DNA of 64,000 nucleotides, taken from assembly GCA_024643545.1 (NCBI GenBank), contig JAHEMR010000035.1, positions 62,001 to 126,000 of the forward strand, written 5' to 3'. Position numbers and translations under genes: made by a program. Numbering within the stretch: the stretch's first letter is position 1; each line of letters opens with the position of its first letter. Below the pieces are notes generated by a model. The model was not told where the DNA came from and made no database searches. It saw nothing but the letters and a program-made list of their open reading frames with translations. Origin of the DNA: Crocinitomicaceae bacterium. Lineage in GTDB: Bacteria; Bacteroidota; Bacteroidia; Flavobacteriales_D; Crocinitomicaceae. This document shows positions 54,818 to 63,287 of the stretch, piece by piece.

Positions 54818-55525
54818 ATGAAAAACCTGAATTATGAATCCCAGAAGCCTTCGATTAAAATGTGGGCAGAGGACGATCGTCCGAGAGAAAAATTGATGTT
54901 AAAAGGTAAAGCAAGCCTTTCAGACGCAGAATTACTTGCCATACTGATTGGAACCGGATATCGAAACAAAAGCGCCTTAGATTTAGCGAAAGATGTCTTG
55001 GATTATGGCTTGAATGATTGGGATAAAATTGGTAAAATGACAGCCATTGAATTAATGAAAATTAAAGGATTAGGTCCGGCAAAGGCCATCAACATCATTT
55101 CAGCGATGGAAATCGGAAATAGAAAAGCTTCGGCAATCATCCCCGCAAAAACAAAAGTGAAGAATTCAAAAATGATATACGACCATTTACGGAAACACTT
55201 TTCAGGCCTTTCCCACGAAGAATTCTATGTCGTTTACCTGAATTTTGCCAATGAAATTATTGACACCAAACAACTTTCCAAAGGAGGAATGACGAGTACC
55301 GTCGTAGATGGAAAAGTACTTTTTCATCATGCATTAACCTGTCAGGCAACTGGATTCATCATCAGTCATAATCACCCAAGTGGAAATCGAGGTCCAAGCG
55401 ATTCCGATAAAAACCTCACGTACAAACTGCGTGACTTCGCTAAACTTATCGACATGCAGTTGATAGATCACCTTATTTTCACAGATAATGGTTATTTTAG
55501 CTTCGCCGACGAAGGCCTTGTATAA
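54818..55525 (+). CDS. radC: RadC-family JAB/MPN protein
   Basis: A 235-residue protein with an N-terminal helix-hairpin-helix region (KGKASLSDAELLAILIGTG, LMKIKGLGPAKAINII) and a C-terminal JAB/MPN metal domain with ISHNHPSGNRGPSDSD, the HxH...D zinc site. RadC proteins are widely conserved; a DNA-repair role has been questioned and the true activity is uncertain. It is the first gene of a five-gene plus-strand run, 2 nt before the second wecB gene. Start ATG at 54818. Confidence 0.93.
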   Translation: MKNLNYESQKPSIKMWAEDDRPREKLMLKGKASLSDAELLAILIGTGYRNKSALDLAKDVLDYGLNDWDKIGKMTAIELMKIKGLGPAKAINIISAMEIGNRKASAIIPAKTKVKNSKMIYDHLRKHFSGLSHEEFYVVYLNFANEIIDTKQLSKGGMTSTVVDGKVLFHHALTCQATGFIISHNHPSGNRGPSDSDKNLTYKLRDFAKLIDMQLIDHLIFTDNGYFSFADEGLV

Positions 55526-55527
55526 CT

Positions 55528-56685
55528 ATGTCGCTTAAAAAAATCATAACCATAATTGGGGCTCGCCCTCAAATCATCAAAGCTGCTGCAATAAGTCGTG
55601 CAATAAGAGCTTCATACGCAGATCAATTGACCGAACTTATCGTTCATACAGGACAGCACTACGATGAAAATATGTCCGGTGTTTTTTTTGAGGAACTTGG
55701 AATTCCTAGTCCTACGTTTAATTTACATGTTGGTAGCAGTTCTCATGCCGTGATGACTGCGAAAATGATGGAGGGACTCGAGTCCATTTTTCTTTCAGAA
55801 AAACCGGATGCCGTATTGGTATACGGAGACACGAATTCAACTTTGGCAGCAGCTTTAGCAGCAGCGAAATTGCACATTCCACTCATTCATGTCGAAGCTG
55901 GTTTAAGAAGTTTCAATAAAACAATGCCCGAAGAATTGAATCGGATTGCCTGTGACCATATGAGTACCTTGCTTTTTTCACCAACGAAAGCAGGGATGGA
56001 TAATTTAAGAAACGAAGGATTTGAATTACTTCCTGTTGAGAAAGCGACAATCAATCGTCCAAATGTATACCACTGTGGGGACATCATGTACGACAATAGC
56101 CTTTTTTTCTCCAAACTATCTGATGAAAAATCACGTGTTTTAGAAGAAAATCAAATGCTAGAAAATGAATTTATCCTTTGTACAATTCACCGGGACTCAA
56201 ATACCGATGATGCACTGCATCTGAATTCCATTTTTGCAGCGCTCATACAAATCCATACTGAAACAGGTTTAGACATTATTCTTCCACTCCACCCTCGGAC
56301 AAAAAAGAAAATGGACGCGTTATTGAATGCGGAATTAAGCACTAAAATCAATCTTTCGAAAGGCTTTAAACTCATTCCTCCAACTGGTTTTTTAGACATC
56401 ATTTCACTTGAAAAAAATGCCAAACTCATCATGACTGATAGTGGAGGTATTCAAAAAGAAGCCTTTTTCTTCCAAAAACCATGCGTCATTTTGAGGGATG
56501 AAACGGAATGGATTGAAATGGTAGAAAATGGCAATGCACGATTAGCAGGATCAACTGAAAAAAGTATTTTTCAAGAGACAATGGAATTACTCAATACATC
56601 AAGTTTTAACTATCCTGATATCTTTGGTGATGGACAAGCAGCAACATTTATTTGCACAAAAATAGTGGAGGATTTACTATGCTAA
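55528..56685 (+). CDS. Second WecB-like UDP-GlcNAc 2-epimerase
   Basis: A 385-residue non-hydrolysing epimerase, divergent from the wecB at 7.8 kb. Family motifs: IIGARPQIIKAAAI, IVHTGQHYDENMS, VYGDTNSTLAAALAA, HVEAGLRSFNKTMPEELNRI, MTDSGGIQKEAFF. The GARPQIIK start and FNKTMPEE form resemble the group that acts on UDP-GlcNAc or diNAc sugars in modified-sugar pathways, so the substrate may not be the same as for the first copy. It is tied to radC (2-nt gap) and to a polysaccharide deacetylase (7-nt overlap), suggesting a glycan role. Confidence 0.88.
   Translation: MSLKKIITIIGARPQIIKAAAISRAIRASYADQLTELIVHTGQHYDENMSGVFFEELGIPSPTFNLHVGSSSHAVMTAKMMEGLESIFLSEKPDAVLVYGDTNSTLAAALAAAKLHIPLIHVEAGLRSFNKTMPEELNRIACDHMSTLLFSPTKAGMDNLRNEGFELLPVEKATINRPNVYHCGDIMYDNSLFFSKLSDEKSRVLEENQMLENEFILCTIHRDSNTDDALHLNSIFAALIQIHTETGLDIILPLHPRTKKKMDALLNAELSTKINLSKGFKLIPPTGFLDIISLEKNAKLIMTDSGGIQKEAFFFQKPCVILRDETEWIEMVENGNARLAGSTEKSIFQETMELLNTSSFNYPDIFGDGQAATFICTKIVEDLLC
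56667..56671 (+). promoter_or_regulatory. Strong Shine-Dalgarno for the deacetylase gene
   Basis: GGAGG ending 7 nt before the ATG at 56679, inside the wecB-like coding sequence. Shine-Dalgarno sequences are rare in Bacteroidota, so this perfect one decides the start and suggests translation is independent of the upstream stop. Confidence 0.7.
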
Positions 56686-57974
56686 CAATTTACGTAGATG
56701 AAATTTCGAGCCGACTGAAATACACACTCAACTTTGTTTTTGAACAAAGGGGAATTGCCTTTCAGTTATGTAACGATTATATGCATTTCAAACAACTTGA
56801 CGGAATAAAACTGAACTATTCCGAGCGGCAATTTGAACATGTACTTCAACTCGTTCCAAGTAAACTTTTGTTTGAAGAAACAATTGAACCATACGAAGTT
56901 ACAACTGGACTTTTCTATCAAGAAGAATGTTTCTGTTTTAACGGCGTAATAGATCCACTTGCAAGTATTTTCTTTACACTTTCACGCATGGAGGAATACC
57001 TCACAGATCAAAAAGATAGTTTGGGTCGTTTTCCTGGAAAAAGCAGCCTTTTGTATCAATACAATTGGCACGAAAAAGCGATGTGTGATCGATGGAGTAA
57101 CGATTTTTTATTGTACTTAAAAGAATCGTGTTCGTTAAAATGGAATCCTAAATTAGAATTGATCGAATCCATTGCAACCTTCGATATTGACAATGCTTTT
57201 GCTTATCTGCATAAAAATACACTACGAACACAACTTGCCACAGCAAAAGATTACCTATACAATCGAAAGGAACGGATTTTAGATCGAAAAAAAGTGCTAG
57301 CTGGCGAAATGAAGGATCCATACGACACGTATGAATTCATTCAGACATTAGCTTTATCAGGAGCAAATGTACTTATTTTCTGGTTGCTTGGCGATTATGG
57401 TACCTACGATAAAAACATTTCACATTTACAACCGAATCAACGTTCACTGATTCAAAAAATGTCGGATTATGCCGAGATTGGTATCCATGCGAGTTATGGC
57501 TCCAATGAATCTGAATACCAATTGGGAATCGAAATTGAGCGATTAAACTTGATTACCCAGAAACCCGTTACAAAAAACAGGCAACATTTCTTGGTTTTAA
57601 ATCTTCCTTTGACCTATCAATCCCTCATTCATCAAAACATTACTGACGATTATACCATGGGATATGCCGATATTGTTGGCTTCAGAGCTGGGACGGCACG
57701 TGTATTCAATTGGTTTGACTTAAGTACAAACGACACCACCACTTTGCGCATTCATCCGTTCACTTACATGGATGGAACCTTGCACGAATACCTCAAACTA
57801 AGTCCACAGGAAGCGATGGAGAAGATTAAGTCACTTTACCAAGAAATCTGTCAATGTGGAGGACAATTCTCCTACATTTGGCACAATGAGACCATTGGAG
57901 ATTATGCCCATTGGAAAGGATGGAAAGAAGTTTTTTCCTACACGATTAATTTAAATCAAACCGATTTTATTTAA
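56679..57974 (+). CDS. DUF7033 / polysaccharide deacetylase-like protein
   Basis: A 431-residue cytoplasmic protein with an N-terminal DUF7033-like region (TGLFYQEECFCFNGVIDPLASIFFTLSRMEEY, DSLGRFPGKSSL) and a C-terminal NodB-like polysaccharide deacetylase domain: ATFDIDNAFAYL (TFDxD metal site), IGIHASYGSN (His-x-Ser) and the late WHNETIGDY. It probably removes an acetyl group or acts on a lipid-linked sugar. Its coupling to a WecB-like epimerase suggests a common glycan pathway. A perfect GGAGG and overlap with the upstream stop fix the start at 56679. Confidence 0.83.
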   Translation: MLTIYVDEISSRLKYTLNFVFEQRGIAFQLCNDYMHFKQLDGIKLNYSERQFEHVLQLVPSKLLFEETIEPYEVTTGLFYQEECFCFNGVIDPLASIFFTLSRMEEYLTDQKDSLGRFPGKSSLLYQYNWHEKAMCDRWSNDFLLYLKESCSLKWNPKLELIESIATFDIDNAFAYLHKNTLRTQLATAKDYLYNRKERILDRKKVLAGEMKDPYDTYEFIQTLALSGANVLIFWLLGDYGTYDKNISHLQPNQRSLIQKMSDYAEIGIHASYGSNESEYQLGIEIERLNLITQKPVTKNRQHFLVLNLPLTYQSLIHQNITDDYTMGYADIVGFRAGTARVFNWFDLSTNDTTTLRIHPFTYMDGTLHEYLKLSPQEAMEKIKSLYQEICQCGGQFSYIWHNETIGDYAHWKGWKEVFSYTINLNQTDFI

Positions 57975-57982
57975 GCTGCAAC

Positions 57983-58228
57983 ATGAAACGATTTTTATTC
58001 ATTGGACTTTTGCTGGTGACTTTTACTTCATGTAAACGAGAATGCATCAAGAATCAAGCAGCATCATGTTTGGAACAAGCTCCAGATGGAACTACCTGCA
58101 TGGCTTATTGGGAGAGTTGGATTTACAATCCAGAAACAGACAATTGTGAATTCAAAGGTTATAGCGGATGTGGACCTATTGGATTTGAATCGGAATCGGC
58201 ATGCGAAGAATGTGAATGCCACAAATAA
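57983..58228 (+). CDS. Kunitz/BPTI-like cysteine-rich lipoprotein
   Basis: An 81-residue lipoprotein: signal MKRFLFIGLLLVTFTSC with lipid-attachment Cys17. The mature part carries a Kunitz (BPTI)-like pattern. Cys29, Cys39, Cys55, Cys63, Cys74 and Cys77 (or Cys79) align with the six Kunitz cysteines; the 15-residue Cys2-Cys3 and 7-residue Cys3-Cys4 gaps equal those of BPTI. WIYNPETDNC and GYSGC match the WxYN...C and YGGC landmarks. The residue after Cys39, the P1 position in inhibitors, is Met40. The first gap is one residue longer and the 4-5 gap shorter than in BPTI. Protease inhibition is inference. It lies 8 nt after the deacetylase and 8 nt before the DUF6970 gene. Confidence 0.8.
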   Translation: MKRFLFIGLLLVTFTSCKRECIKNQAASCLEQAPDGTTCMAYWESWIYNPETDNCEFKGYSGCGPIGFESESACEECECHK

Positions 58229-58236
58229 AGGAATTG

Positions 58237-58584
58237 ATGAGCGTAACTAACCTAATTTTAAGTTTTTGTATTGCCTTCATTTTGTTTGGATGTGAAAAAC
58301 CTGAATTAGCGATGGATGTCCCAACATGTATCGAAAATAAAATTCAAGACATTCAAAACAAACCCGTTGAAAATCCAGCGAAAGAAGTTTGGTTATGGAA
58401 ATACAATGGTGTGAGCTATTATTATTTTACAGCAGCCTGCTGTGATCAATTTAGCACATTGTACGATGCTGATTGTAATTTCGTTTGTGCGCCAGATGGT
58501 GGATTCACGGGAATGGGTGATGGAAATTGTGTTCCAGGAATATTGAATGCAACAAAAACTTTGGTCTGGAAAGACCCTCGTTGA
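58237..58584 (+). CDS. DUF6970-like lipoprotein
   Basis: A 115-residue lipoprotein: MSVTNLILSFCIAFILFGC with lipobox Cys19. The mature domain matches the DUF6970 pattern: CIENKIQDIQ, VWLWKYNGVSYYYF, TAACCDQFSTLYD, and CAPDGGFTGMGDGNC, with six or more cysteines. Function is unknown. I choose the ATG at 58237, which leaves 8 nt from the preceding stop, over 58216, which would overlap it. It probably ends the radC-wecB-deacetylase-Kunitz run; its stop abuts that of the convergent DUF6089 gene. Confidence 0.8.
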   Translation: MSVTNLILSFCIAFILFGCEKPELAMDVPTCIENKIQDIQNKPVENPAKEVWLWKYNGVSYYYFTAACCDQFSTLYDADCNFVCAPDGGFTGMGDGNCVPGILNATKTLVWKDPR

Positions 58585-61280: not shown

Positions 61281-63287
61281 TTATGAACGTTTGCGGTCTC
61301 CACCGAACGATTTTCTTTCACCACGTGGACGATCTCCGCCCTCGCTTTTTCCGAATCCACCACTACGGCTAGATCCACCTGTGCTTCCACCTTCAGAGCG
61401 ACCAGCGTAACCGCCGCCACCTGATCCACCAGAGCGACCAGCGTAACCGCCACCACCTGATCCACCAGAACGACCTGCATAGCCTCCGCCACCAGAACCG
61501 CCTGAACGACCTGCGTAACCTCCGCCTCCTGATCCACCAGAACGACCAGCGTAACCGCCGCCACCTGATCCACCAGAACGACCTGAGAATCCGCCGCCAC
61601 CTGAGCGAGAATCACCTCCAAAACGTCCGCGTCCACGTCCGCCTTCGCTGCGACCTGATCCACCTTCTTTTTGTGCAGTAACTTCAATGTTAACTTGGTG
61701 ACCTTCAAAGTCAGTTCCGTTTACATTTTTCAAGATTTTTTCTGTGTGCTCTTGATCTGCCTCAAAGAATGAGTAAGAAGTCAATAAGTCAATGCGTCCA
61801 ACTGCTTGAGAATTCAAACCTGTTGCATCACAAACAACTCTTAACAACGCACCTGGATTCAATCCATCGCGTTTTCCAAGGTTAACAAAGAAACGAGTTT
61901 TTCCTTCTTCACGTGTACGATCAGATTTTCCACCTTTTCCACGTTCACCACCACGATCATCTCTCGCAGCAGCATTTAAATCTCCCGCACGATCATAATA
62001 GTTAATGAAACGATTAAACTCAGTAGAAACAAAACGCTTGATGATGTCTTCTTTCGACAAACTTTCGAATGCTTCCAAAATTTGTGGCATAAACTTCGCG
62101 ATGTCGTCTTCTTTCACTTCCGTTGCAATGGTTTTGTTAATCAATTTCATCAACTGAATTTCACAAATTTCCTCTGCGTTTGGAATTTCGCCAACGGTAA
62201 ACGTTGTGCGCATTTGACGTTCGATGGCTTTAATCTTGCCAATTTCACGTCCATTGATTAACACCAATGATTCACCTTTCTTACCAGCACGAGCTGTACG
62301 TCCACTTCGGTGCGTATAGTTTTCGATATCATCTGGTAAATTGTAATTGATGACATGTGTAATGTTGTCAATATCAAGTCCACGTGCAGCAACATCTGTC
62401 GCTACTAGGATTTGTAATTCCTTTGAACGGAAACGGTCCATTACACGATCACGCATTGCTTGCGTTAAATCTCCATGTAAAGGTTCTGCGTTATATCCCT
62501 CGCGACCTAATTTCTCAGCAACTGTTGCTGTTTCGTTTTTGGTACGACAGAAAATCAATCCGTAAATAGTTGGATTAAAATCGATTAAACGTTTTACCGC
62601 TTCGTAACGATCGCGTTCCTTCACCATATAATAGATGTGGTCGATGTTTTCGTTACTTTGATTTTTGTGTCCAATAGAAACCTCTAAAGGATCATGCATG
62701 TATGTTTTTGCAATACGCGCAACTTCCGTTGGCATTGTTGCAGAAAACAACCATACATTTTTCTCTACAGGCGTTGTTTCTAAAACCGCGTCAATATCTT
62801 CTTTGAATCCCATGTTCAACATTTCATCTGCCTCATCTAGCACGACATAACGCACTTGAGATAGTTGAATGACTTTACGATTCATTAAATCAACTAGACG
62901 TCCAGGAGTAGCCACAATAATGGATGTCCCTTTCTTAATGTCCGTGATTTGTTTTCTGATATCCGTTCCTCCATATACCGCTGTAATGTTACAGTCAAGG
63001 TACTTAGCAAATACATTTAAGTCCTTCGCGATTTGCAAACAGAGTTCGCGAGTTGGACAAATGATCAAACCTTGTGGAAGTCTGGCTTTTGTATCGATGT
63101 TATTAATTAACGGCAAGCCGAACGCTGCCGTTTTTCCTGTTCCTGTCTGCGCTAGGCCGACAAAGTCGCAATCCTCCTGCATCAGGTACGGAATTGCTTT
63201 TTCTTGGATGGGGGTCGGTGCTTCAAAACCCAATTCTGTTAACGACTTCAGCACCTCACTCCTCAATCCGAGCTCTTCAAATGTCAT
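61281..63287 (-). CDS. deaD: DEAD-box RNA helicase with DbpA-type RNA-binding domain and Gly/Arg/Ser-rich repeats
   Basis: ATP-dependent RNA helicase (CsdA/DeaD-like) in ribosome assembly and cold adaptation. The 668-residue protein has the Q motif PTPIQEKAIP, Walker A AQTGTGKT, DEADEMLN, SATMP, DVAARGLDI and HRSGRTARAGK. A DbpA-type RNA-binding domain follows (RFFVNLGKRDGLNPGALLRVV, SYSFFEADQEH). The tail from ~residue 555 is a GRSGGSGGGGYA repeat (five copies, 61399-61578) flanked by other Gly/Arg/Ser-rich sequence, which would bind RNA or promote condensates. Start at 63287 follows an exact -7 box. Confidence 0.95.
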   Translation of the reverse strand: MTFEELGLRSEVLKSLTELGFEAPTPIQEKAIPYLMQEDCDFVGLAQTGTGKTAAFGLPLINNIDTKARLPQGLIICPTRELCLQIAKDLNVFAKYLDCNITAVYGGTDIRKQITDIKKGTSIIVATPGRLVDLMNRKVIQLSQVRYVVLDEADEMLNMGFKEDIDAVLETTPVEKNVWLFSATMPTEVARIAKTYMHDPLEVSIGHKNQSNENIDHIYYMVKERDRYEAVKRLIDFNPTIYGLIFCRTKNETATVAEKLGREGYNAEPLHGDLTQAMRDRVMDRFRSKELQILVATDVAARGLDIDNITHVINYNLPDDIENYTHRSGRTARAGKKGESLVLINGREIGKIKAIERQMRTTFTVGEIPNAEEICEIQLMKLINKTIATEVKEDDIAKFMPQILEAFESLSKEDIIKRFVSTEFNRFINYYDRAGDLNAAARDDRGGERGKGGKSDRTREEGKTRFFVNLGKRDGLNPGALLRVVCDATGLNSQAVGRIDLLTSYSFFEADQEHTEKILKNVNGTDFEGHQVNIEVTAQKEGGSGRSEGGRGRGRFGGDSRSGGGGFSGRSGGSGGGGYAGRSGGSGGGGYAGRSGGSGGGGYAGRSGGSGGGGYAGRSGGSGGGGYAGRSEGGSTGGSSRSGGFGKSEGGDRPRGERKSFGGDRKRS
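61399..61578 (-). repeat. 36-bp tandem repeat in the helicase tail, five copies
   Basis: Units start at 61399, 61435, 61471, 61507 and 61543; each encodes GRSGGSGGGGYA on the minus strand. The nucleotide copies differ at third positions while the peptide is constant, so the repeat is maintained at protein level. A sixth degenerate unit precedes it on the coding strand. Confidence 0.95.

Follow-up and report, generated by a model that had tools for sequence, protein, structure and literature searches.

The stretch of Crocinitomicaceae DNA analysed here (64,000 nucleotides, hereafter the window) carries, at 57983–58228 on the plus strand, a gene for an 81-residue lipoprotein with a domain of the Kunitz type, Kunitz inhibitors being a textbook animal family. 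Judged by its sequence, homology of the product to Kunitz domains is close to certain, and a role as a substrate-like inhibitor is likely. The reading that we prefer, with a probability of roughly 0.55, is that of a lipid-anchored Kunitz-type inhibitor that would shield the cell surface, most likely against a foreign serine protease; the foreign origin of the target is an educated guess. The small protein would be held by the lipid at Cys17, presumably on the outer face of the outer membrane, and its BPTI-like fold would be braced by the three standard disulfides, 29–77, 39–63 and 55–74, and by a Cys21–Cys79 bond that links the C-terminus to the anchored end. Its Met40–Ala41 loop would mimic a substrate: inserted into the active site of a serine protease with a chymotrypsin or subtilisin fold, it would be released slowly, and the protease would likely come from grazing protists or from predatory or competing bacteria. 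Pointing toward an inhibitor are the lipobox-like start, the Kunitz homology, the six cysteines, the P1–P1' place, purifying selection and an accessory distribution, while weak structural models, lost BPTI positions, a gene pair at another locus that fits self-control and three S8 frames in the same genome point against it.

The 81-residue open reading frame, called a lipoprotein in the initial annotation, is borne out from the sequence, and its start is lipobox-like. A predicted signal peptide (residues 1–16, 57983–58030) is hydrophobic and leads into a TSC whose cysteine, Cys17, closes the lipobox, and further cysteines stand at positions 21, 29, 39, 55, 63, 74, 77 and 79. The six cysteines in Kunitz order, the 15- and 7-residue gaps, the WIYN and GYSGC landmarks and the Met at P1 that had been described are all present: 15 residues lie between Cys2 and Cys3 and 7 between Cys3 and Cys4, the spacings familiar from BPTI, and Met40 (58100–58102), which by homology we take to occupy the P1 place, directly follows Cys39, the second Kunitz cysteine. 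The last two gaps, 10 residues between Cys4 and Cys5 and 2 between Cys5 and Cys6, differ from the 12 and 3 of BPTI. The 10-residue stretch had gone unremarked before, as had the extra Cys21 (58043–58045) and its proposed partner Cys79 (58217–58219).

Several comparisons at the sequence level support the Kunitz assignment. A search against PF00014 (Kunitz_BPTI) had been proposed in the initial annotation, and the window protein itself passes the cut-off: residues 29–76 (58067–58210) score 22.3 bits at E 1.5e-4, where the gathering score is 21. Given this score, and given that it is the single match in the whole genome while 14 control genomes gave zero, we consider the match to be beyond chance; as the sequence nonetheless passes the full profile, we read the deviating Cys4–Cys5 and Cys5–Cys6 gaps as a subfamily difference. 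When solved chains were searched with the window protein using phmmer, boophilin came first (E 1.3e-6), followed by SmCI (3.5e-5), and a profile of 45 relatives of the same subfamily (class A, described below) reached SmCI at E 1.4e-17, boophilin at 9.9e-13, TFPI at 1.5e-11 and BPTI at about 1e-5. The class A profile also aligned with that of a second group (class B), whose members score up to 55.7 bits against PF00014, at a probability of 98.3 and E 2.3e-14.

Structure prediction was of low confidence throughout. An AF2 model of the full-length mature protein (8 close sequences) had a mean pLDDT of 51.3, and its Foldseek matches were not meaningful. A core model (7 sequences) contains a hairpin and a C-terminal helix (strands 12–23 and 28–38, helix 45–50), but at a mean pLDDT of 61.5. 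The best 50 of 191 Foldseek rows for this core model were Kunitz chains, named as such in their titles except for a few such as 1toc, 8vc3, 2kcr and 6q61; the best E among the rows listed was 0.092, none passed E 0.001, and the VIA Z was at most 3.3. The topology of the core model would suit a Kunitz fold and lends it support short of proof.

Sorting by motif of 84 parsed loci (from a total of 88, with a few genomes represented twice) gave 49 loci of class A, the short lipoproteins to which the window protein belongs, and 35 of class B, canonical-looking bacterial Kunitz proteins. In a tree of 75 domains, built without animal sequences, one branch with an SH-aLRT of 98 parts the two classes; inside them resolution is poor, with 40 of 72 inner branches open. 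All sequences counted keep the 15-residue Cys2–Cys3 and 7-residue Cys3–Cys4 spacing (44/44 in class A, 35/35 in class B). Class A usually has one residue more than BPTI between Cys1 and Cys2 (9 residues in 40/44) and a Cys4–Cys5 loop two residues shorter, whereas the class B loop is longer. Invariant across 45 aligned class A rows are the Cys17 column, Cys29, Cys39, Trp46, Cys55, Gly62, Cys63, Gly67, Phe68, Cys74, Cys77 and Cys79. By a simple sequence check, the cysteine of the Cys17 column follows a hydrophobic stretch in 44 of these rows; the exception, L006, has its own lipobox farther upstream, so that its invariant cysteine in this column is not the lipobox one. Class A departs from BPTI at the Gly12, Gly36 and Asn43 region, which are usual BPTI positions, and Ser61 of the window protein replaces a glycine. 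Class B is marked by a P-D/E-x-G-x-C-x-A loop and a longer GGC-x-G-V-V-P-F region. At a number of loci (L033–L037, L040–L048, L050, L052–L054, L056–L058 and L061) the class B domain opens longer proteins, whose open frames run to some 250–400 residues, and P1 is then mostly Glu or Phe; in the class B protein of L143 an FBA-like domain and a Por tail come in addition.

Both ends of the class A domain carry an additional cysteine. All class A loci but one (48 of 49) have the CxxCxC-type tail; L008 instead shows a shortened CxCxC and lacks a Cys21 equivalent. The Cys21 column holds a cysteine in 43 of 44 filled rows. Seven of the 35 class B sequences have a tail with the extra cysteine, and in six of these the 13 residues ahead of Cys1 also include a cysteine beyond that of the lipobox; in the seventh, L063, they do not. 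In the other 28 we take the upstream cysteines to belong to the signal peptide or the lipobox; L087, a longer class B protein, departs from this with several mature upstream cysteines and no extra cysteine in its tail. This tendency of the extra upstream cysteine and the CxxCxC tail to co-occur suggests a Cys21–Cys79 bond, predicted here as a fourth disulfide.

The residues around the predicted scissile bond differ sharply in their conservation. Among the 45 class A rows, P1 is a variable column (Gln in 22, Met in 8, Ala and Leu in 5 each, Glu in 2, and Phe, His and Asn in one each) next to the near-invariant Ala41 at P1' (Ala in 43, Asp and Glu once each). In the 35 class B sequences P1 is Glu in 19, Phe in 8, Lys in 3 and Arg, Met, Tyr, Leu or Asn once each, and P1' is Ala in 33 and Gly in 2. 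On the class A tree, P1 changed 15 times among 8 residue types, P1' twice and the cysteine preceding P1 not once. Because several other class A columns vary as much or more (columns 22, 26, 30, 54 and 78 change more often), the variability of P1 is by itself no proof; the telling feature is its contrast with the fixed neighbours, which is consistent with substrate-like inhibitors. Since neither Lys nor Arg stands at P1 in any of the 45 class A rows, a protease resembling elastase, chymotrypsin or subtilisin would be a likelier target than one resembling trypsin. Across eight orthologues, whose P1 codons encode Met, Gln or His, the mature part has a median dN of 0.052, dS of 1.12 and dN/dS of 0.045 (from the 16 of 28 pairs whose dS could be used), and the signal part a dN/dS of 0.18 (25 pairs); by these measures, the Kunitz gene is real and under constraint.

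In animals, certain Kunitz domains have channels or receptors as their binding partners, and the window protein might similarly be a Kunitz-fold binding module that has lost protease inhibition. The altered loop ahead of Cys2 and the shortened Cys4–Cys5 loop would suit such a module, as would the prevalence of Gln at P1 (22/45), an uncommon P1 residue for serine protease inhibitors. We nevertheless regard this as unlikely, given that Ala at P1' in 43 of 45 rows, the invariant loop cysteines and the fixed Cys2–Cys3 and Cys3–Cys4 spacings are what a canonical inhibitory loop needs.

A target inside the same organism had been suggested in the initial annotation, according to which the protein might guard the cell from its own T9SS proteases. 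This idea is weakened by the S1 proteases, even though one T9SS-tailed S8 subtilase speaks for it. The genome has a single S1 match, a 509-residue frame with a GNSGG motif that looks HtrA/DegP-like, and the lack of any further S1 match makes a foreign target the most likely one. Nor did we find a link between Kunitz carriage and S1 number in the 150 of 200 family genomes with at least 90% completeness (mean 1.96 in 24 carriers versus 1.92 in 126 others, Mann-Whitney p 0.97), a comparison that covers S1 counts alone and defines carriers by PF00014, so that some members are missed; a stricter quality group comprised 146 genomes. Restraint of a secreted protease of its own, which would spare surface proteins from self-digestion, has other genes in its favour: three S8 frames, one of them of 738 residues with a Por_Secre_tail match in an adjacent frame of the same length, and a C25 gene, which we take to be of the PorU type. 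The Kunitz neighbours moreover resemble enzymes for the T9SS anchor sugar, even if the Kunitz gene sits in other neighbourhoods elsewhere. In another genome (G711; L119, 7871–11549, minus strand), a class B Kunitz lipoprotein gene (50.4 bits, Lys at P1) lies about 76 nt after a trypsin-like gene encoding 1095 residues with Trypsin_2, P-domain and Por tail, and this pair of protease and putative inhibitor is where self-inhibition looks most plausible. For the window protein, which has Met at P1 and for which no protease of the L119 type was seen, a foreign target is favoured, and we consider control of an own protease to be distinctly improbable there.

Genomes with a PF00014 match numbered at least 25 of 200 in the family, at least 62 of 349 in the order, at least 25 of 345 in the class and at least 6 of 345 in the phylum sample; these samples overlap, and the true numbers may be higher, because genome G121, which holds a clear member (L162), gives no match. 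The six carriers in the phylum sample all fall within the window's own class, and class A was seen in the window's order as well as in other orders of that class. Seven close relatives lay on named contigs, six of them titled as Flavobacteriales or Crocinitomicaceae MAGs. One record titled as a Chryseobacterium gleum MAG (L031) shares a locus with Crocinitomicaceae/Flavobacteriales MAGs, and its label may be wrong. A mobile origin of the gene was dropped: the viral contigs searched held zero relatives of the Kunitz protein, and plasmids and phages, searched with the window protein alone, likewise gave zero. Tentatively, the Bacteroidia (as we infer the class to be) might possess a long-standing endogenous Kunitz family rather than a recent loan from animals, with a lipid-anchored class A and a canonical class B, whose P1 would be re-tuned in step with foreign proteases as an antiproteolytic surface defence of free-living bacteria; we hold this to be possible yet doubtful.

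Compared with Kunitz/BPTI proteins such as BPTI, SmCI, boophilin and TFPI, class A shares sequence, the order of the six cysteines, the Cys2–Cys3 and Cys3–Cys4 spacing and Ala at P1', but would be a bacterial lipoprotein with an extra cysteine at each end, a non-basic P1 in 45 rows, usually one more residue before Cys2 and two fewer in the Cys4–Cys5 loop. Class B belongs to the same fold family, and several of its members are lipoproteins with the same extra cysteine pair; it differs from class A in its canonical loop motif, its longer GGC region and, in some cases, its frames of 250–400 residues. Kunitz domains in bacteria are not new as such. PMC11511053 describes Acinetobacter baumannii F6W77 as an exotoxin with five Kunitz domains, some of which were assayed for inhibition and the three active ones of which have Arg at P1, reports that Kunitz domains of a bacterial protein inhibit factors Xa and XIa, and suggests transfer of Kunitz domains from animals to bacteria. 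As inhibition by bacterial Kunitz domains is thus already published, the window protein is no new kind of finding; by their description there, the five-domain exotoxin and the Arg at P1 set F6W77 apart. In a literature search covering titles and abstract openings among the matches listed, with subscription journals mostly outside its range, no Bacteroidota Kunitz protein appeared. What appears new here, from sequence comparison, is a conserved class A with predicted lipid anchor, extra cysteine pair and non-basic P1. Such a branch in environmental bacteria would be a bacterial counterpart to animal surface protease control and suggests that some bacteria may shield themselves with an animal-type protease inhibitor; class A would make resistance of prey bacteria to predator proteases testable and would offer bacterial sequences for comparison when the origin of the Kunitz fold is traced.

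The Kunitz gene stands in a plus-strand run behind radC (54818–55525; PF04002 and NF000642 over cut-off), an epimerase gene (55528–56685) and a deacetylase gene with a DUF7033 region (56679–57974; PF23019), and ahead of a DUF6970 lipoprotein gene (58237–58584; PF22311, 88.9 bits). With ATG at 56679 and 58237 taken as the starts, the gaps come to 2, -7, 8 and 8 nt, as first reported. The name wecB, given to the epimerase in the initial annotation, agrees with NCBIfam, whose wecB cut-off is passed. Among solved chains, UDP-2,3-diacetamido-2,3-dideoxy-glucuronic acid 2-epimerases match best (E 1.6e-104), with chains named UDP-GlcNAc 2-epimerase behind (4neq at 1.7e-82, others from 1.9e-46 down). 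Plain WecB identity is therefore less likely than a WbpI-like UDP-2,3-diacetamido-glucuronate 2-epimerase, a renaming that the NCBIfam pass leaves probable rather than proven. The deacetylase reaches 154 bits against the VimE model NF053580, under its cut-off of 440, and is called VimE-like only. For the DUF6970 lipoprotein, solved structures gave one match (E 0.9) and no credible relative.

In the genus, 72 of 81 genomes carry the deacetylase, including all 47 of good quality. In the best 30 of 73 deacetylase matches the epimerase always precedes it, with radC ahead in 27 and the remaining three loci ending short upstream. The layout with deacetylase and DUF6970 is shared by 11 loci, 9 of which have the Kunitz gene between the two, and in L161 and L165 DUF6970 directly follows the deacetylase and the Kunitz gene is absent; the cysteine-rich DUF6970 lipoprotein keeps its place there. 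The other 19 loci have neither gene within the at most 1.5 kb examined, so that 21 of 30 loci have the epimerase–deacetylase pair and, in that stretch, no Kunitz core, with L175, L176 and L183 ending less than 0.6 kb past the deacetylase; two genomes among the 19 (G148 and G186) have a Kunitz gene elsewhere. The Kunitz gene is thus an optional insert in a genus-wide radC–epimerase–deacetylase run, and a conserved functional operon including it was rejected on the 9/11 presence and the genus-wide pair without it. The gene order from radC to DUF6970 with the Kunitz gene included is kept in the window's own subclade and not beyond it, where Kunitz neighbours differ (34 loci, among which L107 belongs to the subclade), and the context once called unexpected is largely explained by the WbpI-like and VimE-like enzymes of a run that occurs with or without the Kunitz gene.

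In Porphyromonas gingivalis and Tannerella forsythia, Wbp/Vim enzymes are proposed (PMC7468200) to make the sugar that joins T9SS cargo to A-LPS. The window epimerase and deacetylase resemble the WbpI-type and VimE enzymes of that pathway, but this likeness covers two genes, one under the VimE cut-off and the other wecB in NCBIfam. Together with the C25 gene and 103 Por_Secre_tail matches in the genome, most above cut-off, these resemblances indicate that 55528–57974 is probably a T9SS cargo-anchor sugar run, whose association with the Kunitz gene looks positional. That the Kunitz protein works with epimerase and deacetylase as part of an anchor-sugar operon is very improbable, the tight same-strand run in the subclade being outweighed by the 21 of 30 genus loci (three ending short) without a Kunitz core and by Kunitz genes with other neighbours elsewhere.

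Pfam scans of neighbours covered 27 proteins (two being Kunitz proteins themselves) from 54 clustered contexts. From the neighbour clusters, with one member of each confirmed by Pfam, a gene for an LVIVD-repeat protein recurs no more than five genes away from the Kunitz gene at 5 of 34 loci, in both classes (L090, L093, L094, L116 and L117), and one for an ECF sigma factor nearby at 6 of 34 (L090, L092–L094, L114 and L118). Farther along the window, at 61281–63287, lies a DEAD-box helicase with a run of near-identical GGYAGRSGGSGG repeats at its C-terminus.
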